Assembly: GCA_027307335.1 (NCBI GenBank)
Contig: DAHUXD010000012.1
Coordinates: 62,001 to 126,000 of the forward strand
Direction of reading: 5' to 3'
DNA length: 64,000 bases
Source of the DNA: Acidobacteriota bacterium
GTDB lineage: Bacteria; Acidobacteriota; Thermoanaerobaculia; UBA5066; Gp7-AA6
Positions 56,098 to 64,000 of this stretch are shown piece after piece. The position numbers and the translations under genes were made by a program. The notes below the pieces were generated by a model. It was not told the DNA's origin. It saw only the letters and a program-made list of their open reading frames with translations, and ran no database searches. How positions within the stretch are numbered: position 1 is the first letter of the stretch; each line of letters begins with the position of its first letter.

Positions 56098-56535
56098 TCA
56101 CTGGACCACGACCGTGCCCTGCATCATCGTCCCGTGCACCAGACAGAAGTACGGGAAGGTGCCCGTGGTCGGAAAGGTGTGCTGGAAGGTCCCGCTCGAC
56201 AGGACGCCCGAGTCCCACAGCCCGTTCGCGACGCAGCCCAGGGGGCAGGAGCCCGAGGTCGTCGAGTGGGTTCCGGAGACCCAGATCCACTGCACGGTCT
56301 CTCCGGCGTGGATCGTCGTGGTCGACGTGCCGCTCACCGAATCGGCGAAGACGTTCGCGGGCCCGACCCCCGGCGCCTGCCCGACGGTCACGTTGTGCGG
56401 CGCCGCCACCGGCGTCGGCGTGAGCGTGCTGGGAGTCGGCGTCGCCGTCGGCCCGGTCATCGTGTCGTCGCAGCCGATCGCGGCCGCGGCGGCGGCGATC
56501 CCGATCGCGAGGCGCGCGGCGCGGGGGAAGACCAT
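56098..56535 (-). CDS. Lipoprotein cupredoxin (plastocyanin-like)
   Basis: A 145-residue protein. The lipobox AAAIGC places a lipidated Cys at 22, followed by a Thr/Pro-rich tether (TPTPSTLTPTPVAAP). The cupredoxin domain has HAGETVQWIWVSGTHSTTSG (first His ligand) and FPYFCLVHGTMMQGTV with Cys, His and Met, giving a type 1 copper site. An extra Cys pair (SCPLGC) sits in the loop. It would carry electrons in the periplasm. Transcribed alone on the minus strand. Confidence 0.9.
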   Translation of the reverse strand: MVFPRAARLAIGIAAAAAAIGCDDTMTGPTATPTPSTLTPTPVAAPHNVTVGQAPGVGPANVFADSVSGTSTTTIHAGETVQWIWVSGTHSTTSGSCPLGCVANGLWDSGVLSSGTFQHTFPTTGTFPYFCLVHGTMMQGTVVVQ

Positions 56536-56583: not shown

Positions 56584-57798
56584 GTGACGGACGTCGCCGC
56601 GATGCTCGAAATCCTGCGCCGCGGCGCCGTCGACCTGATCGACGAGGCCGACCTCGCGCGAAAGCTCGCCCGCGGTCCGGTGACCGTGAAGGTCGGCTTC
56701 GACCCCTCCGCCCCCGACATCCACCTCGGCCACACGGTGATCCTTCGCAAGATGCGCCACTTCCAGGACGCGGGGCATCGCGTCGTGTTCGTCATCGGCG
56801 ACTTCACGGGGATGATCGGCGACCCCTCCGGGAAGAAGGCGACGCGGCCGCAACTGACCCGAGAGGAGATCGCGCGGAACGCCGAGACGTACAAGAACCA
56901 GGCCTTCAAGGTCCTCGACGCGGACAAGACGATCATCGAGTTCAACGACCGCTGGCTCGGCCAGCTCGGCGCGGCGGGCATGGTGCGCCTGGCGTCGCGG
57001 GTCACCGTCGCGCGGATCCTCGAGCGCGACGACTTCCAGAAGCGCTGGAAGGCCCAGCAGCCGATCGCGCTGCACGAGCTCCTGTACCCGCTCGCGCAGG
57101 CCTACGACTCCGTCGCGCTGAAGGCCGACGTCGAGCTCGGCGGCACGGACCAGCTCTTCAACCTCCTCGTCGGGCGCGACCTCATGCGGGCCGAGGGACT
57201 CGAGCCGCAGGTCGTCATGACGCTGCCGCTCCTGGTGGGTACGGACGGCGTGGAGAAGATGTCCAAGTCGCTCGGCAACGCGATCGGCGTGCTCGATCCA
57301 CCGTCGGACATGTTCGGCAAGGTCATGTCGATCCCCGACGCGCTCCTGTGGAACTGGTACGAGCTGCTGACGGAGGAGCCCCTCGCGGTCCTCGAAGCGC
57401 TCCGCCGGCGCGTCGAGGACGGCTCCGTCAACCCGCGGGACGTGAAGGCGCGCCTCGGCCACGCCATCGTGCGGCAGTTCCACGGCACCGAGGCCGCGGA
57501 CCGCGCCGAGGAGGACTTCCGGCGCGCGTTCTCCCGGGGCGAGGTCCCCGACGACGTCGAGGCGCGGAGCCTCCCGGCCACCGGCGGCGCTCCCGCCGCG
57601 AAGACGCTCGTCGCGCTCGGCCTCGCCGCCTCGATGAGAGAGGCGCGGCGGAAGATCGCCGAGGGCGCGCTGCGGGTCTACGTCGATGGCACGGACGCGC
57701 CGCGCGAGATCCGCGACCCCGAGGAGGACCTGTCGGCCGGGGGCGGCGGCGTGCTCCGCCTCGGCCGCCGCTTCATCCGCGTGGCCTGGACGAGATAG
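56584..57798 (+). CDS. tyrS: Tyrosyl-tRNA synthetase
   Basis: A 404-residue class I synthetase. The HIGH-type motif is PSAPDIHLGHTVIL, the KMSKS loop is VEKMSKSLGNAIG, and the C-terminal S4-like RNA-binding domain starts near residue 335 (SMREARRKIAEGALRVYVDG). The intact KMSKS loop is typical of the TyrZ-type branch. GTG start; the end overlaps the convergent fur gene by 26 bases. Confidence 0.95.
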   Translation: MTDVAAMLEILRRGAVDLIDEADLARKLARGPVTVKVGFDPSAPDIHLGHTVILRKMRHFQDAGHRVVFVIGDFTGMIGDPSGKKATRPQLTREEIARNAETYKNQAFKVLDADKTIIEFNDRWLGQLGAAGMVRLASRVTVARILERDDFQKRWKAQQPIALHELLYPLAQAYDSVALKADVELGGTDQLFNLLVGRDLMRAEGLEPQVVMTLPLLVGTDGVEKMSKSLGNAIGVLDPPSDMFGKVMSIPDALLWNWYELLTEEPLAVLEALRRRVEDGSVNPRDVKARLGHAIVRQFHGTEAADRAEEDFRRAFSRGEVPDDVEARSLPATGGAPAAKTLVALGLAASMREARRKIAEGALRVYVDGTDAPREIRDPEEDLSAGGGGVLRLGRRFIRVAWTR

Positions 57799-58282
57799 GG
57801 ACCGGGACCGGTCCCGCCGCCTCCGCCCCGAAACTTCCCGAGCCCTTCGAGCGGGGCCGGCAGCGCTTGCAGATGCCGCGCATCTGGTGGTTGTGCGAGA
57901 GCAGCACGAACCCGTGCCGCACCGCGACCTCGTCCTGGAGCGCCTCGATCCGGGGCTCGAAGAACTCGATGACCCGGCCGCACTGGTCGCAGATCAGATG
58001 GTCGTGGTGGTCGCCCGCATGCAGCCGTTCGTATCGGTACCCCGCCTCGCCGATCCGGAGCTTTCCGACGACGCCCGCCTCGACGAGCAGCTCGAGTGTC
58101 CGGTAGATCGTCGCGCGCGAGATCTTCTTGTGCTTGGTGCGCAGCCGCACGAGCAGCTCGTCGGCCTCGACGTGCTCGTGCTTGCTGAAAACTTCATCAA
58201 AGAGAGCCTGGCGCTCGGACGTGAGCTTCAGCCCCCGTCGTTCCAGATACTTGCGGAAGATTGCCAGCTCGCGGCGGTTCAT
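57773..58282 (-). CDS. fur: Ferric uptake regulator (Fur family)
   Basis: A 169-residue Fur protein. The winged helix is at about 20-75 (SRATIYRTLELLVEAGVVGK), and HHDHLICDQCG (92-102) gives the metal-binding histidines. The zinc cysteines are C98/C101 and C138/C141. A Gly/Pro-rich C-terminal tail is additional. ATG at 58282 is preferred over a TTG seven codons upstream, because the TTG would lie inside the palindromic element. It probably represses itself and the divergent FTR1 gene when iron is sufficient. Confidence 0.92.
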   Translation of the reverse strand: MNRRELAIFRKYLERRGLKLTSERQALFDEVFSKHEHVEADELLVRLRTKHKKISRATIYRTLELLVEAGVVGKLRIGEAGYRYERLHAGDHHDHLICDQCGRVIEFFEPRIEALQDEVAVRHGFVLLSHNHQMRGICKRCRPRSKGSGSFGAEAAGPVPVPISSRPRG

Positions 58283-58296
58283 GGGATTGCGACTCT

Positions 58297-58312
58297 GTCT
58301 CAATTGAGATAC
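58297..58312. promoter_or_regulatory. Palindromic Fur-box-like operator between fur and FTR1
   Basis: Perfect 12-base palindrome TCTCAATTGAGA (58298-58309) in the 82-base gap between divergent genes, about 15 bases before the fur ATG. Half-site TTGAGA/TCTCAA also occurs in the operator at 60000. A TTGACT -35-like hexamer for fur is at 58337-58332 on the minus strand. Confidence 0.65.
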
Positions 58313-58364: not shown

Positions 58365-59153
58365 ATGTGGCAGGGGTTCACGATCGCGCTCCGGGAAGGA
58401 ATCGAGGCTTTCCTCATCGTCGCGCTGACGCTCGCGTACCTGAAGCGAACCGGCCGGCCGGGCCTCGCCCGCGCCGTCTACGCCGCCGTCGCCGTGTCGG
58501 CCGTGACCTGCGCCGGCGCGGGCCTGCTCTTCGCGAAGGCGGCCAACCAGTCGCTGTGGGAGGGCATCCTCGCGCTCGTCGCCGCCGCGCTCGTCGGCAG
58601 CCTCCTCTTCTACATGAAGCGCGTGTCGAAACGCCTGAAGAGCGACATCGAGACGAGGCTCGAAGCGCGCGCCGCGGCCGGCGCGGGACGCGCGTTCTGG
58701 GGCGTCTTCGCGTTCACGCTCCTGATGATCACGCGCGAGGGGATGGAGACCGCGCTCCTCATCGCGACCGCCTTCTTCCAGCTGAAGTCCGCGGCCGTGG
58801 TCACCGGGCTCGCGCTCGGCCTCGCCGCCGCGGCGGCGATCGGGTTCTCGTGGACGCGGCTCGGCAAGAGCGTGGACGTGCGAGCGATCCTGAACGTCTC
58901 GGCGATTTTCCTCGGGATCTTCCTGGTCCAGCTCGTGCTCTACGGCGTGCACGAGCTCGCCGAGGCGCGGCTCTTCCCCTCTTCGCAGGCGATCCACGAC
59001 GCGACGGAGATCCTCGGCCCGGACGGTCTCGTCGGCCACCTGCTCGCCTACGCGCTCGCCGCGGTGCCGACGGTCTGGCTCGCGGGTCTCTGGTGGAAGC
59101 GGCGGCGGGCGGCCGCCGGTGCGGGCGGCGCCCCGCGCGTCAGCGCGGCGTAG
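58365..59153 (+). CDS. FTR1-family high-affinity iron permease (EfeU-like)
   Basis: A 262-residue protein with about seven membrane segments. The two iron-binding R-E-x-x-E motifs are intact: REGIE at 10-14 and REGME at 124-128. The family imports ferric iron, usually with a periplasmic ferroxidase partner, which I do not see here. It is divergent from fur and shares its operator region. The end overlaps the convergent gene at 59140 by 14 bases. Confidence 0.93.
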   Translation: MWQGFTIALREGIEAFLIVALTLAYLKRTGRPGLARAVYAAVAVSAVTCAGAGLLFAKAANQSLWEGILALVAAALVGSLLFYMKRVSKRLKSDIETRLEARAAAGAGRAFWGVFAFTLLMITREGMETALLIATAFFQLKSAAVVTGLALGLAAAAAIGFSWTRLGKSVDVRAILNVSAIFLGIFLVQLVLYGVHELAEARLFPSSQAIHDATEILGPDGLVGHLLAYALAAVPTVWLAGLWWKRRRAAAGAGGAPRVSAA

Positions 59154-59883
59154 AAGTCGCCGCGGGCCGCGGCGTGCGGCCCGACCGGAGCATCGCCTCG
59201 ATGACCGCCGGAGAGACTCCGGCGGAGCGCAGCTCCTGGATCTCCGCGGTCGTGAGCGAGTAGACGGTGCGTTCCCGTTCGACCCGCGCCAGGAGATCCG
59301 CGTCCGTCGCGCCGGCCTGCTTCGCCGCCAGGATCGACGCGTACGGTTTCGAAACCGGGCGTGGCGTCCCGAAGTAGGGCTGGTCGGGAACGGCCGAAAT
59401 CGGTCTCGGCGTCGGCGCCGCGGTCCGGGAGGCGTCCACGATCCGGCGGAGGTAGCCCGACGGATGTCCTCCCGCCGTGCCGCAGGAGCCGTCCGCCGGA
59501 TGCGTGAAGTGGATCAGGTCGCCGCCCTTCGGCACGTGCACGTACTCGCCGGCGATCTCGATCCGGTCGGCCTTCTCGAGATGGAGGGCGGCGCCGCCGC
59601 ACGAGAGGTCGTGCACGACCTTCACCGGATGCGCGGTGTCGATGGCGAGCTCGCGATCGGCGCCCGACGGCTGGTTCGCCGCCGGCCGCGCCGAGACCAG
59701 TCGGATCTCGAACTCGAGGAAGCGGCGGCCGTTCCTGTGCACGGTCTCCTTCGGCGGGGTGACGATGGTCGCCTCCCCCACGATCTGGACGTGCGGGCTC
59801 TTGCGGGACGGGGCGGCCGCCAGGAGCGCCGGGGCGAAGACGAGCAGGGCGAGAACGAGGGGAGCGAGACGGCGATGGCGCAT
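59140..59883 (-). CDS. Exported protein of unknown function
   Basis: A 247-residue protein with a signal peptide (RLAPLVLALLVFAPALLAAA). The N-terminal half contains VQIVGEATIVTPPKETVHRN and a central stretch CGGAALHLEKADRIEIAGEY; two Cys and several His residues could bind metal. The C-terminus has a helical motif (YSLTTAEIQELRSAGVSPAV) seen in other acidobacterial exported proteins. It sits in the iron region but on its own strand. No family recognised with confidence. Confidence 0.7.
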   Translation of the reverse strand: MRHRRLAPLVLALLVFAPALLAAAPSRKSPHVQIVGEATIVTPPKETVHRNGRRFLEFEIRLVSARPAANQPSGADRELAIDTAHPVKVVHDLSCGGAALHLEKADRIEIAGEYVHVPKGGDLIHFTHPADGSCGTAGGHPSGYLRRIVDASRTAAPTPRPISAVPDQPYFGTPRPVSKPYASILAAKQAGATDADLLARVERERTVYSLTTAEIQELRSAGVSPAVIEAMLRSGRTPRPAATSTPR

Positions 59884-59967: not shown

Positions 59968-60020
59968 TTGACGCCCGGGCCACCTCTCCCTTAGGCTGCG
60001 ATTGAGACTGAATCTCAATC
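59968..60020 (+). promoter_or_regulatory. Promoter with downstream Fur-box-like palindrome for the ApbE operon
   Basis: TTGACG (59968-59973), 18-base spacer, TAGGCT (59992-59997), followed directly by the 21-base palindrome GATTGAGA-CTGAA-TCTCAATC (60000-60020) covering the expected transcript start. This is where a repressor would block initiation. The 7-base arms are perfect. Confidence 0.7.
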
Positions 60021-60087: not shown

Positions 60088-61125
60088 ATGATCGGCGTTC
60101 TCGCGATCGCCACCCTCGTCTCGGGTACCTCCCCGCGGGTCCCCGTCGAGCGCCGCGTCGCGTCCATGGGCACGACCCTCGACGTCGTCGTCGTCGCCCG
60201 CGACCGGGGCCTCGGTCTCGCCGCTTCGGAAGCCGCATTGCGAGAGATCCAGCGCGTCGAGGCCCTGCTGACGACCTGGAAGCGGGGCGGCGAGCTCGAC
60301 CGGATCGACGAGGCCCCGCCCGATCGCCCCGTGCGCGTCTCGCCGGAGCTCGCCGGCCTGCTCGCCGAGGTCTTCGCCTGGATCCCGCGAACCGAGGGCG
60401 CGTTCGATCCGACGATCGCACCGCTCCTGCGCGCCTGGGACCTGCGCGGCCAGGGCCGCATTCCGTCGGCCGCGGAGCTCTCCGCGGCGCGCGCCGCCGC
60501 CGGCTCGGACAAGTTCCGGCTGGATGCCTCCGCGAACTCCGTCACGCGCCTCGATCCGGCCGCCGGCATCGAGGAGGGCGCCTGGGGCAAGGGCTACGGC
60601 CTCGACCGCGCCGCGGCGGCGCTGAGGTCGGCGGGCGTCTCGGACGCGGCGCTCGATCTCGGCGGGCAGGTGCTCGCGCTCGGCGCGGACGCGGAAGGCA
60701 AACCGTGGAGGGTGCCGGTCGCGGACCCGCGGGAGCGCGGGCGCGCCGTCGCCGTCCTTGGTTTGACCGGAGCGTCCGCCTCGACGTCGGGCGACTCCGA
60801 ACGCTCTCGCGAGTCCGGCGGCCGAAGCATCGGCCACATCCTCGATCCGCACACGGGCGAGCCCGCGCCGGACTTCGGCTCGGTCACGGTCGTCGCGCCG
60901 ACCGGACTCGTGGCGGACGTGCTGTCGACGGCCTTCTTCGTCCTCGGTCCGGCGCGCGGCCTCGCGCTCTCGGAGCGGCTGCGTCGCGGCGGCATTCGGA
61001 ACGAGGCGATCTTCCTCGTCGTGCGCGGCGGCTCGCTCGAGGCGCTCGCGAGCCCCGGCATCTCCGCGCTCGTCCTTTCGTTCGACCCGGCCGCCGTGCA
61101 CGGCCTGACGACCTCGACGCGATGA
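60088..61125 (+). CDS. apbE: FAD:protein FMN transferase (ApbE family)
   Basis: A 345-residue protein with a short signal-like N-terminus (IGVLAIATLVSGTSP). Family motifs are present: SMGTTLDVVVVA, EGAWGKGYGLDRAAAAL, HILDPHTGEPAP and VVAPTGLVADVLSTAFFVLG, the last carrying metal- and FAD-binding residues. ApbE attaches FMN to a Thr or Ser in the sequence [S/T]-G-A-[T/S] of partner proteins outside the cytoplasm. A partner with exactly that motif is encoded two genes downstream. It is first in the operon, 68 bases after the Fur-box-like palindrome. Confidence 0.93.
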   Translation: MIGVLAIATLVSGTSPRVPVERRVASMGTTLDVVVVARDRGLGLAASEAALREIQRVEALLTTWKRGGELDRIDEAPPDRPVRVSPELAGLLAEVFAWIPRTEGAFDPTIAPLLRAWDLRGQGRIPSAAELSAARAAAGSDKFRLDASANSVTRLDPAAGIEEGAWGKGYGLDRAAAALRSAGVSDAALDLGGQVLALGADAEGKPWRVPVADPRERGRAVAVLGLTGASASTSGDSERSRESGGRSIGHILDPHTGEPAPDFGSVTVVAPTGLVADVLSTAFFVLGPARGLALSERLRRGGIRNEAIFLVVRGGSLEALASPGISALVLSFDPAAVHGLTTSTR

Positions 61126-61148
61126 ACACCCGAGAGGAGGCAAATCCC

Positions 61149-62588
61149 ATGCGTCGCTTCATGCGGTTCCTGTTCCTGGTCCTCGTCCTCGGCGGCCCCC
61201 TCGTCGCGGCGGCCCAGGCGCCGCCGCCCGCCCCCACGCCGGCCCCGCCGCTCACCCCCGAGCAGCGCATCGAGCAGCTCGAGAAGCTGCTCGCCGACAC
61301 GCGCACCGAGCTCGAGCGTCTCAAGGCCTTCTCCACGTCTGCGGAGACCAACGCGAAGCTCGAGGAGCTCTCGCGGCGCATCGACATCCTGGCCGAGGAG
61401 ATCCAGAACCTGAAGATGGGCGAGGCGGCGCCCGCGCTCGAGGCCGGGGCGAAATCGGGCGAGAAGTCCGTCGAGCGCTACGGGATCGGCCCCGCGGCGG
61501 CGCGCGTCTACGGGATCAAGTCGGGCGTCTCGATCGGCGGGTACGGCGAGGTGCTCTACGACAATTTCGCCCCGAAGGACCAGAGCGGCAACCCCGCCTC
61601 GGGCGAGGACGTCATCACGCTGCTGCGCGCCGTCGTCTACCTCGGCTACAAGTTCGACCAGCACTTCGTGCTGAACACCGAGATCGAGTACGAGAACGCG
61701 GTCGTCGCCTCGGACAAGGGCGGCGAGGCCGAGGTCGAGTTCGCCTACATCGACTACATGCACGCGCCCGCCTTCAACGCGCGCACGGGACTCGTCCTGA
61801 TTCCGTCGGGCCTGATCAACCAGCTCCACGAGCCGACGGCGTACCTCGGCGCGCGCCGCCCCGACGTCGAGACGTTCATCATCCCGTCGACCTGGCGCGA
61901 GATCGGGACGGGGTTCTACGGAACGCATGGTCCGGTCTCGTACCAGTTCTACGGCGTCAACGGCCTGAACGTGGCGGGCTACAGCGCCGACGAGGGCATC
62001 CACGAAGGCTCGCAGGAGGGCTCCGAGGCGCTGGCGAAGAGCTGGGCGTTTGCGGGCCGCGTCGACTTCACCGCGATGCCTGGGCTGCTCGTCGGCGCGT
62101 CGGTCTTCTCCGGGGACGCGGGGCAGGGCCAGTTCACGCCGTCGGGCCAGAAGATCAGCGCGCTCACGACCGTCTTCGACGCGCACCTCGACTGGCGCTG
62201 GCGCGGGCTGTGGCTGCGCGGTCTGTACGCGCACACGTCGGTCGCGCAGGCGAATCTCGTCAACGAGCTCAACGGCTTCCAGGGCGACGAGTCGGTCGGA
62301 AGCCGGCAGGAGGGCTGGTACGTGCAGGCCGGCTACGACGTCCTCTCGCTCGTCCCCGGCACGCGCCTCTCGCTGATTCCGTACGCCCGCTACGAGCAGT
62401 ACGATACGCAGGCTCAGGTCCCCGTCGGTTACGAGCGGAATCCCGCGAACGACATCACGGAGCTCACGCTCGGCGCCGCCTTCCAGCCGATTCCCCAGCT
62501 CATTCTCAAGGCCGACTGGCAGCAGCGGCACAATGCCGCGAAAACGGGAGTGAACGTTTGGAACGTCTCGCTCGGCTACGTCTTCTGA
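61149..62588 (+). CDS. Outer-membrane porin-like protein with N-terminal coiled coil
   Basis: A 479-residue protein. Signal peptide (RFLFLVLVLGGPLVAAAQ), a Pro-rich linker, then a periplasmic coiled coil (about 38-95; RIEQLEKLLADTRTELERLK), and a beta-barrel from about residue 120 to the terminal aromatic residue (NVSLGYVF). GGYGEVLYDN and alternating aromatic strands are typical of outer-membrane porins. GAGAGGAGG sets ATG at 61149; an in-frame ATG at 61122 overlaps the apbE stop as ATGA. It may let iron or chelates into the periplasm. Confidence 0.87.
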   Translation: MRRFMRFLFLVLVLGGPLVAAAQAPPPAPTPAPPLTPEQRIEQLEKLLADTRTELERLKAFSTSAETNAKLEELSRRIDILAEEIQNLKMGEAAPALEAGAKSGEKSVERYGIGPAAARVYGIKSGVSIGGYGEVLYDNFAPKDQSGNPASGEDVITLLRAVVYLGYKFDQHFVLNTEIEYENAVVASDKGGEAEVEFAYIDYMHAPAFNARTGLVLIPSGLINQLHEPTAYLGARRPDVETFIIPSTWREIGTGFYGTHGPVSYQFYGVNGLNVAGYSADEGIHEGSQEGSEALAKSWAFAGRVDFTAMPGLLVGASVFSGDAGQGQFTPSGQKISALTTVFDAHLDWRWRGLWLRGLYAHTSVAQANLVNELNGFQGDESVGSRQEGWYVQAGYDVLSLVPGTRLSLIPYARYEQYDTQAQVPVGYERNPANDITELTLGAAFQPIPQLILKADWQQRHNAAKTGVNVWNVSLGYVF

Positions 62589-63130
62589 GAATCGCGCGGC
62601 TCCTCGCGGTCGCGGCGGCGCTCGTCGTCGCCGCCCGCGTGGCCTCGGGCAAGGTTTTCCTCACGGCGGAGGAGGCGCTGAAGCTCGCCTTCCCGGGCGC
62701 GACGATCACCCGGCGCACCGCGTTCCTGACGAAGGCGCAGCAGCAGGCCGCGCGCCAGCTCTCGGGCGACGAGGAGCCGCCCTCGGCGCTCGCGACCTTC
62801 TACACGGGGATCAGGGACGGCCGGCTCGTCGGCACGGCGTACGTCGACACGCACGTCGTGCGCACGATGCCGGAGACGATCCTCGTCGTCGTCGACCCCG
62901 CTGGCGCCATCGCGCGGATCGAGGTGCTCTCCTTCTCGGAGCCCGAGGAGTACCTGCCGAAGGCGCACTGGTACGAGCAGTTCCAGGGCAAGCCGCTCGA
63001 CGACGAGCTGTCGTTGAAACGCGCGATCCGCCCGGTCACGGGCGCGACGCTGACGGCGCGCGCCACGACGGACGCCGCTCGCCGCGTGCTCGCGCTCCAC
63101 AAGGTCCTCCGGGAGGCGCCGAAGCCATGA
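62558..63130 (+). CDS. FMN-binding-domain protein, ApbE substrate candidate
   Basis: A 190-residue membrane-anchored protein. A basic N-terminus and hydrophobic anchor (RIARLLAVAAALVVAARVAS) are followed by an extracytoplasmic FMN-binding domain. IRPVTGATLTARAT has the flavinylation motif T-G-A-T (T164 the likely attachment site). TTG at 62558 with GGGAG upstream is the best standard start, overlapping the porin by 31 bases; a CTG at 62585 overlapping the porin stop is also possible. It resembles RnfG/NqrC-like flavoproteins and would carry electrons to an outside acceptor. Confidence 0.87.
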   Translation: MERLARLRLLRIARLLAVAAALVVAARVASGKVFLTAEEALKLAFPGATITRRTAFLTKAQQQAARQLSGDEEPPSALATFYTGIRDGRLVGTAYVDTHVVRTMPETILVVVDPAGAIARIEVLSFSEPEEYLPKAHWYEQFQGKPLDDELSLKRAIRPVTGATLTARATTDAARRVLALHKVLREAPKP

Positions 63131-63606
63131 AGCGGTGGGAGGCGTGGTGGAACCACGCGGCGCTCGCCGCCGTGTCGCTGACGGGCCTCGTATACGGCGT
63201 CTTCAAGTACTTCGTACTGAACCCGGACCCGGACTCGCGGGCGGGGCACCCGCTGCAGCCCGTGTTTCTCAAGGCGCACCTGCTCGTTGCGCCGTTCGCC
63301 CTGATCGGCGTCGGCCTGCTCCTCCACCGCCACGCGCTCTCCCGAATGCGGCGGGGCGAGCGGCAGGGGCGGCGGACCGGAGGGCTCATCCTCTGGCTGA
63401 TCGTGCCGGTCGCGCTCAGCGGCGTGCTCATCCAGGTGCTCGTCGAGCCGCATGCCGTCCGGTGGACCGGGTGGACGCACGCGGCGCTCGGCGCGCTCTT
63501 CGTGATCGGTTACGCCTTCCATCCGAAGCGCCGCTCGCCCGCTCCGGTCCTCGAAGCGCGGGCCGACGACGGCGTCACGGAGGCGTTCGTCGAGGGGGCG
63601 CGTTAG
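63127..63606 (+). CDS. Four-helix membrane protein, probable b-type cytochrome
   Basis: A 159-residue protein with four membrane segments. Histidines sit at helix positions WWNHAALAAV, FLKAHLLVAPF, LLHRHALSRM and GWTHAALGALF, giving two pairs suited to b-type haem in the membrane. It starts within the stop of the FMN-binding protein (ATGA). By position it could pass electrons from quinol to the flavoprotein (inference). I do not recognise a named family. Confidence 0.78.
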   Translation: MKRWEAWWNHAALAAVSLTGLVYGVFKYFVLNPDPDSRAGHPLQPVFLKAHLLVAPFALIGVGLLLHRHALSRMRRGERQGRRTGGLILWLIVPVALSGVLIQVLVEPHAVRWTGWTHAALGALFVIGYAFHPKRRSPAPVLEARADDGVTEAFVEGAR

Positions 63607-63612
63607 GGCCGT

Positions 63613-64000
63613 CTAGAACACGTACGTCAGGCCCGCGGTGTACGCCGGCTTGATGTCCTGGATGCCGTTCAAGTTCTTCCAGACCGGGAACTGAGCGGCG
63701 GCGCGGACGACGAGGCCGTGCACGACGTGCACGCCGATGCGCGGGGTGAGGTAGAGCGACTGGCCCCCCGTGTTCGGGTCGATGACGCCGGAAGCGTCCA
63801 CCTGGTCGTGCTTCGCGTCGAGAAAGTTGACCTCGAGCAGCCCGTCGAGGAAGTCCGTCAGCTTGCGGTCGTAGACGACGTTCGCCTGGACGTTGTCGCC
63901 GTACTTGTAGCCGAAGTCGTTGCGGTCCGTGCCGGTGTAGGCGACCGAGGCGTAGATCGACGACTCCGCGTCGAGCAGATAGAGCCCGTTCAATCCGCCC
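63613..64000 (-). CDS. C-terminal part of an outer-membrane beta-barrel protein (truncated by window end)
   Basis: The frame is open to the window edge, so the N-terminus lies beyond it. About 128 visible residues alternate polar and hydrophobic as in beta-strands (YASVAYTGTDRNDFGYKYGD, VHVVHGLVVRAAAQFPVW) and end in AGLTYVF, the terminal aromatic expected of outer-membrane barrels. It resembles small transporter-like barrels of the phenol-degradation MetA type. Convergent with the cytochrome-like gene, seven bases away. Confidence 0.78.
   Translation of the reverse strand, partial: GGLNGLYLLDAESSIYASVAYTGTDRNDFGYKYGDNVQANVVYDRKLTDFLDGLLEVNFLDAKHDQVDASGVIDPNTGGQSLYLTPRIGVHVVHGLVVRAAAQFPVWKNLNGIQDIKPAYTAGLTYVF

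Follow-up and report, generated by a model that had tools for sequence, protein, structure and literature searches.

The question raised by this locus is what function is served by four closely spaced genes, encoding ApbE (a flavin adenine dinucleotide (FAD):protein flavin mononucleotide (FMN) transferase), an outer-membrane porin, an exported FMN_bind protein and a four-helix membrane protein, which lie near the end of a 64,000-nucleotide stretch of DNA (the window) from an Acidobacteriota bacterium. The window is part of a 4.37-Mb draft genome (G000, contig C20), the relatives of which are Acidobacteriota, mostly labelled Thermoanaerobaculia, and the gene order from left to right is fur, FTR1, a gene for a 247-amino-acid exported protein, apbE, the porin gene, the FMN_bind gene and the four-helix gene (Table 1). 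It is probable that the operon from apbE onward encodes a Fur-controlled assimilatory ferric (or ferric-chelate) reductase of the cell envelope. A previous, sequence-only reading had proposed an iron-regulated flavin electron-transfer unit serving iron uptake, and its inventory, i.e., the four coupled genes with fur and FTR1 nearby, was found complete at 60088-63606; the co-conservation of a gene trio, the Fur boxes, the iron-related neighbours and the invariant histidines all agree with that proposal. What the sequences show directly is which genes are present, that they are conserved together, which residues do not vary, that Fur boxes are conserved and that iron genes are neighbours.

The layout of the four genes, with 23 bases between the apbE stop codon (61125) and the porin ATG (61149), an overlap of 31 bases between the porin and FMN_bind genes (62558/62588) and a 4-base ATGA overlap between the FMN_bind and four-helix genes (63127-63130), suggests co-transcription as a single unit. 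The ATG at 61149 is preceded by a strong Shine-Dalgarno sequence, while an alternative porin start at 61122 has none. ApbE, FMN_bind and FTR1 genes were each found once in the host genome, all at this locus, and by these family models ApbE and the FMN_bind protein are thus each other's only partner.

To assess conservation of this gene set (the module), 84,980 species genomes were scanned with an alignment of the FMN protein, which returned 184 relatives, of which 80 were retained; phylum counts derived from them represent lower bounds. The porin is adjacent in 76 of these 80 loci, the four-helix protein in 78 and ApbE in 59, with the position of apbE being variable (at the start, at the end, or between the porin and FMN genes) and membership of the set constant. 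The loci belong to Acidobacteriota, Planctomycetota, Gemmatimonadota, Latescibacterota, Myxococcota and others, amounting to about eight or more phyla. The neighbourhood survey which the sequence-only reading had called for thus finds the predicted pairing of FMN-binding and four-helix proteins almost throughout, while its description of the arrangement as unusual does not stand: the FMN gene occurs, almost always in a single copy, in 88 of 297 sampled Acidobacteriota genomes (about 30%), besides several other phyla. A search with the four-helix protein identified relatives in 22 of 61 genomes, and in the regions read out around them porin, FMN and four-helix genes are almost always grouped. 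Among 119 genomes sampled evenly across the phylum, 29 have both a strong porin gene (E below 1e-97) and an FMN gene, the exceptions being one lone porin at a contig edge and two lone FMN genes, one of them also at a contig edge. Furthermore, the three proteins show correlated evolutionary distances (Mantel r 0.61-0.70; 0 of 999 permutations as high). Phyla are partly intermixed in the FMN-protein tree, which suggests some transfer or misbinned metagenome-assembled genomes. Module parts are duplicated within single genomes at L152, which has two porins, and at L146, where a second FMN gene lies 7.4 kb downstream. A Holophagales-type genus retains porin, FMN and four-helix genes with no adjacent ApbE, Fur box or iron genes (Table 1), and regulation of the module may differ there.

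That iron is what the module handles is argued principally by its neighbours. Unsupervised clustering of neighbouring frames yielded Fur, FeoB, FeoA, a DtxR-type repressor and FTR1, all confirmed by Pfam. At least one such iron gene (FeoB/FeoA, FTR1, Fur or DtxR-type) lies within 7.5 kb of the FMN gene in 21 of the 80 loci, and importer genes do so in 13 (nine FeoB and four FTR1, excluding a shadow match in L046). Since genomes carry one or two FeoB copies, we estimate the chance of finding one within this distance at about 0.5% per locus, as against the 9 in 80 observed. Arrangements differ between lineages: in Acidobacteriota, Fur and FeoB precede the module; in Latescibacterota and Gemmatimonadota, FeoA and then FeoB follow the four-helix gene, and three of the four also have a DtxR-type gene upstream; and in Elusimicrobiota the order is Fur-ApbE-porin-FMN, the usual four-helix gene being absent. 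FTR1 is also found near the module in L050, L080, L085 and L111, with the order Fur-FTR1-ApbE-porin-FMN-four-helix in L080 and L111. Different importers have been recruited separately, and this is the chief argument that what the module yields is iron for import. FTR1, which the sequence-only reading paired with the porin for uptake, is only one of several importers, and FeoB is commoner. FTR1 was rejected as a necessary partner, since it was found in 3 of the 22 genomes of relatives and at 4 of the 80 loci, and apparent FTR1 matches in L046 and L061 were dropped as out-of-frame shadows overlapping the fur gene. In the window it is likely a partner of the operon; its neighbours are fur and the gene for the 247-amino-acid protein, and EfeO/EfeB or P19 were not found beside it.

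The Fur-box-like palindrome that the sequence-only reading had placed ahead of the operon is present at 60003-60017, and the same class of site precedes modules in two samples of loci. Only this palindrome and a weaker one between fur and FTR1 reach at least 12 of 14 positions in the window, and mononucleotide shuffles of the window contain no such site. For the comparison, a fixed consensus, TGANAMTNAKTNTCA, was required at 11 of 12 positions, and sites were counted from -350 to +60 bases around the start of the first module gene, with the remaining sequence of the same loci as control. In the first set, 35 sites per 31 kb of upstream zones were found versus 8 per 1.16 Mb elsewhere (163-fold), and 32 of 76 loci carry a site, where shuffles lead one to expect 0.15 sites. 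A second sample of 37 loci, drawn evenly from the phylum and analyzed with the rule and threshold set beforehand and left unchanged, gave 20 sites per 15 kb versus 8 per 555 kb, with 20 of the 37 loci positive; nine of these 37 are records in, or very near, the first set, and among the 28 that count as new a site is present in 13. Fur-box sequences therefore lie specifically upstream of the module, a distribution from which iron control of its expression may be presumed.

The FMN protein exceeds the PF04205 cut-off of 22 bits (Table 1), and the family is matched by 62 of 64 relatives. Its flavinylation motif has the form R-x-x-T-G-A-T, with the acceptor residue being T or S in 85 of 85 relatives. 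The T-G-A-T motif claimed by the sequence-only reading is thus present, but the leading Asp that is usual six residues before the acceptor is replaced by Arg; among the 85 relatives, 67 have Arg or His at this position and 3 have Asp. Replacing this Asp by Ala has only minor effects according to a review (PMC12052999), and its loss consequently lowers, without excluding, the likelihood of flavinylation; T164 is the predicted site of covalent FMN. The protein had also been described as membrane-anchored, which finds no support: the N-terminus resembles a cleavable signal sequence and a lipobox-like motif occurs in only 3 of 85 relatives, so that the protein is probably secreted. Residues D97, H99, V101, R102, T103, F126, E128, P129 and G162 are invariant in the 85 aligned rows. 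The closest solved relatives are RnfG subunits, and similar to RnfG/NqrC the protein combines an FMN_bind domain with a C-terminal [S/T]G[A/S][S/T] motif. Unlike them, it has no Rnf/Nqr subunits nearby, carries R/H in place of the motif Asp, scores far under the NCBIfam RnfG cut-off, and possesses the invariant stretch D97-x-H99-x-V-R-T. D97 and H99 represent a candidate substrate site because they are invariant and yet the D-x-H-x-V-R-T stretch is missing from aligned RnfG.

The four-helix protein is the putative electron donor. Among the histidines of this protein, which had been described as His-rich, four (H51, H69, H118 and H132) are the same in all 82 proteins and H41 is nearly constant (79 of 82), but H10, H67 and H109 vary. 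In the structural model (predicted local distance difference test score (pLDDT) 80), helices span residues 3-28, 44-75, 83-104 and 108-131, where helix 2 contains H51 and H69, and helix 4 contains H118 and has H132 at its end, a placement that reproduces the pattern of di-haem b-type four-helix cytochromes, i.e., two histidines per helix on opposite membrane sides. Lysine plus arginine content averages 4.9 in loop 2 versus 0.2 in loop 1, and by the positive-inside topology this bias indicates that both termini should be inside. The top fold matches are to the cytochrome b of hydrogenase-1, albeit weak (E 0.2-0.5). Taken together, a di-haem b cytochrome is predicted from sequence and model, and haem binding would follow. 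The protein falls under all Pfam cut-offs, and attempts to name it by Pfam or NCBIfam returned scattered sub-threshold matches only (CopD, Ni_hydr_CYTB, DUF4405 and unrelated membrane families); a profile search of solved structures with this protein and with the porin gave nothing useful. DUF4405 and FezC are small membrane b-type cytochromes associated with flavinylation and iron handling (Huang et al. 2024, PMC11334425), and they share with the window protein a small size, conserved histidines, four of them key, and ties to apbE or iron organelles. However, DUF4405 is reported to have six helices as opposed to four, and PF14358 scores the window protein at 11.7 bits (E 0.4; gathering cut-off 26.7), while its best E value against 62 four-helix relatives is 0.0014, with 3 of the 62 below 0.01. 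In Elusimicrobiota and two Acidobacteriota loci, a second type of membrane protein fills the four-helix place; it is likewise hydrophobic and His-containing, and the slot therefore seems to be kept filled by similar proteins.

A Fur-controlled flavin protein with a cytochrome partner could alternatively spare iron rather than acquire it, replacing a periplasmic c-type cytochrome under iron shortage (compare flavodoxin and ferredoxin) and donating electrons to an enzyme of respiration or repair. This reading too would predict Fur-type boxes, the module codes for no fixed acceptor enzyme, and the same idea has been discussed for flavinylation in general (Meheust et al. 2021, PMC8238504). We nevertheless regard this as unlikely, as it leaves the near-obligatory porin and the FeoAB/FTR1 neighbours unexplained, the predicted cytochrome would itself require two haems, and no conserved acceptor enzyme appears among the clustered neighbours.

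The AlphaFold model of the porin (pLDDT 88.6) has 16 strands and an N-terminal coiled coil, and the best Foldseek matches are trimeric porins of the OmpC/OprP type (E about 1e-12), while sequence matches to BBP2/Porin_O_P are weak; structurally, the modelled protein is a diffusion porin of this type. A more distant subfamily, matched by the porin profile with E values of about 1e-60 to 1e-95, is located away from FMN genes (Table 1). In a second alternative, the module would release iron from siderophores or haem in the periplasm by reduction, as in FoxB/PepSY-like systems, after import of the chelate by a receptor encoded elsewhere. Its function would be near that of the Fur-repressed PepSY-like flavinylation clusters (PMC8238504). 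This is slightly less credible still: what the loci conserve as a partner in the outer membrane is a porin of the 16-strand diffusion type, no cluster of TonB-dependent receptors emerged among the neighbours, and the TonB-type receptor located about 2 kb beyond the operon here is accompanied by an apparent cobalamin adenosyltransferase. That porin and FMN protein carry electrons across the outer membrane as a dissimilatory conduit is very improbable. With a cytochrome at the inner membrane, a carrier in the periplasm and a barrel in the outer membrane, the trio does follow the general plan of the porin-cytochrome conduits (PCC), and some carriers of the module are Holophagaceae (L067, L089, L103). 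However, the large barrel (about 26 strands) and multihaem c cytochromes of MtrCAB/PCC are replaced here by a barrel with the 16 strands of diffusion porins, one flavin per protein and four operon proteins devoid of any CxxCH motif; strand number and missing haem motifs led to rejection of the porin as an electron conduit, and Fur-type control suits assimilation more than respiration.

In the favoured model, that of an assimilatory ferric reductase, low iron would release Fur from the palindrome at 60003 and the four genes would be expressed. ApbE would attach FMN to Thr164 of the exported FMN_bind protein, and the four-helix protein would hold two b haems, one ligated by H51-H118 on the periplasmic side and the other by H69-H132 on the cytoplasmic side. 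Electrons would pass from the quinol pool via this cytochrome to the covalent FMN, and the FMN protein would reduce Fe(III) or small ferric chelates arriving through the dedicated porin; import of the Fe(II) would then fall to the neighbouring FTR1 here and to FeoB in other carriers. That quinol donates the electrons and ferric iron accepts them, in which direction they flow and how the haem ligands pair is what we infer, and iron uptake by the operon probably proceeds without siderophores. Several observations weigh against the model. No iron gene lies within 7.5 kb of the FMN gene in 59 of the 80 loci, and in the sponge-associated Holophagales-type genus 11 loci display neither a Fur box at the module nor iron neighbours. 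The canonical Asp of the ApbE motif is absent, unrelated folds rank shortly behind the weak cytochrome b matches of the four-helix model, and porins pass many solutes, so that the cargo need not be iron. In a bolder version, the module would represent a class of flavin-based iron uptake not described before and present in about eight or more phyla: a cytochrome of a new family, a flavinylated protein that has an iron site of its own (D97 and H99, both invariant) and a dedicated coiled-coil porin would assemble into a single complex spanning the envelope, and Fe(III) would be taken up independently of siderophores and TonB. This version is tentative and, as a whole, rather doubtful.

Flavinylated extracytosolic iron reductases are already known in general. 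ApbE-flavinylated clusters have been grouped as NapH-, MsrQ-, PepSY-, DsbD- and NQR/RNF-like, and the PepSY-like ones are implicated in Fur-regulated iron reduction, being repressed by Fur in Shewanella and Caulobacter according to work cited in PMC8238504. The window module resembles these clusters in its combination of ApbE, an exported flavinylation substrate and an inner-membrane electron carrier, in having iron-transporter neighbours, and in the Fur control of some PepSY-like clusters. It differs in that its membrane carrier has no Pfam match to these classes, in its dedicated porin, and in its partners (FeoAB/FTR1 versus VIT1). The P19-FTR1-FMN_bind iron assimilation clusters described in the same work likewise combine FTR1 and an FMN_bind protein at an iron-linked locus, whereas the window has no P19, does have the porin and four-helix protein, and belongs to a module for which FTR1 is optional (4 of 80). 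Predicted Fur-controlled porins of Geobacter/Desulfuromonas, one before feoAB and another, psp, weakly similar to PF07396 (Porin_O_P), are comparable as porins with Fur boxes, but no FMN_bind, ApbE or four-helix partner is named for them (PMC545781). That porins can feed FeoB has precedent in Escherichia coli (PMC7315122). The word 'porin' is absent from PMC11334425, and neither 'porin' nor 'FeoB' occurs in the main text of PMC8238504. A literature search for the combination of FMN-binding protein, porin, Fur, FeoB and ApbE found no description, although supplementary tables may list some loci; relative to the papers searched, the gene combination, the cytochrome family and the porin were not found and would be new.

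Acidobacteriota, Planctomycetota and Gemmatimonadota are abundant, mostly uncultured phyla whose iron acquisition is little understood, and several Planctomycetota and Gemmatimonadota also carry the module. If the model is correct, these bacteria would possess a simple reductive iron route in which a pore and a flavin reductase are combined with an importer of ferrous iron, with no siderophore receptors, and a new membrane electron carrier would join the partners of flavinylated proteins.

Table 1. Positions of the features discussed; those without a prefix refer to the window.
Feature	Position	Strand	Remark
Fur-box-like palindrome TGAGACTGAATCTCA	60003..60017		7-1-7 inverted repeat, 71 nt before apbE start
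Weaker Fur-box-like palindrome	58288..58302		Between fur and FTR1; 12/14 positions
ApbE, FAD:protein FMN transferase, exported	60088..61125	+	PF02424 E 2.3e-67
Outer-membrane porin, periplasmic N-terminal coiled coil	61149..62588	+	AlphaFold model, Foldseek, weak family matches
Exported FMN_bind protein, predicted ApbE substrate	62558..63130	+	TTG start; PF04205 28.6 bits
Flavinylation motif R-P-V-T-G-A-T	63029..63049	+	T164 is the predicted FMN-bearing residue
Four-helix membrane protein, 159 amino acids, predicted di-haem b cytochrome	63127..63606	+	Invariant His, model, topology
Fur-family regulator	57773..58282	-	PF01475 E 4e-31; divergent from FTR1
FTR1/EfeU-type iron permease, upstream neighbour	58365..59153	+	PF03239 E 1.4e-28
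247-amino-acid exported protein	59140..59883	-	Unassigned reading frame between FTR1 and apbE
Predicted lipoprotein	56098..56535	-	
Convergent 310-amino-acid barrel-like protein	63613..64000, on to L024:12546	-	
TonB-dependent receptor, past the window edge	L024:13035-15433	-	
Replacement membrane protein	L113:9529-10089, L092:3276-3878, L160:8792-9463, L159:7600-8355		Directly after FMN gene; no clear Pfam family
Loci of the Holophagales-type genus	L037, L056, L065, L074, L078, L083, L086, L087, L095, L096, L112, L121		
Distant porin subfamily, examples	G132:C8, G148:C22, G107:C7, G087:C20, G068:C34 and others		

The FTR1 and FUR family matches in the window are above the Pfam cut-offs, and the top NCBIfam matches of the Fur-family protein are Fur models, each of which remains under its own cut-off. 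Downstream of, and outside, the operon lies a convergent gene for an exported, barrel-like protein with a CSMCRC motif after the signal sequence. The TonB-dependent receptor beyond it is followed by an apparent ATP:cob(I)alamin adenosyltransferase, and the two are probably a vitamin B12 uptake unit, not an iron receptor. On the other side, a predicted lipoprotein with a plastocyanin-like C-terminus (YFCLVHGTMM) is encoded directly before tyrosyl-tRNA synthetase and fur.

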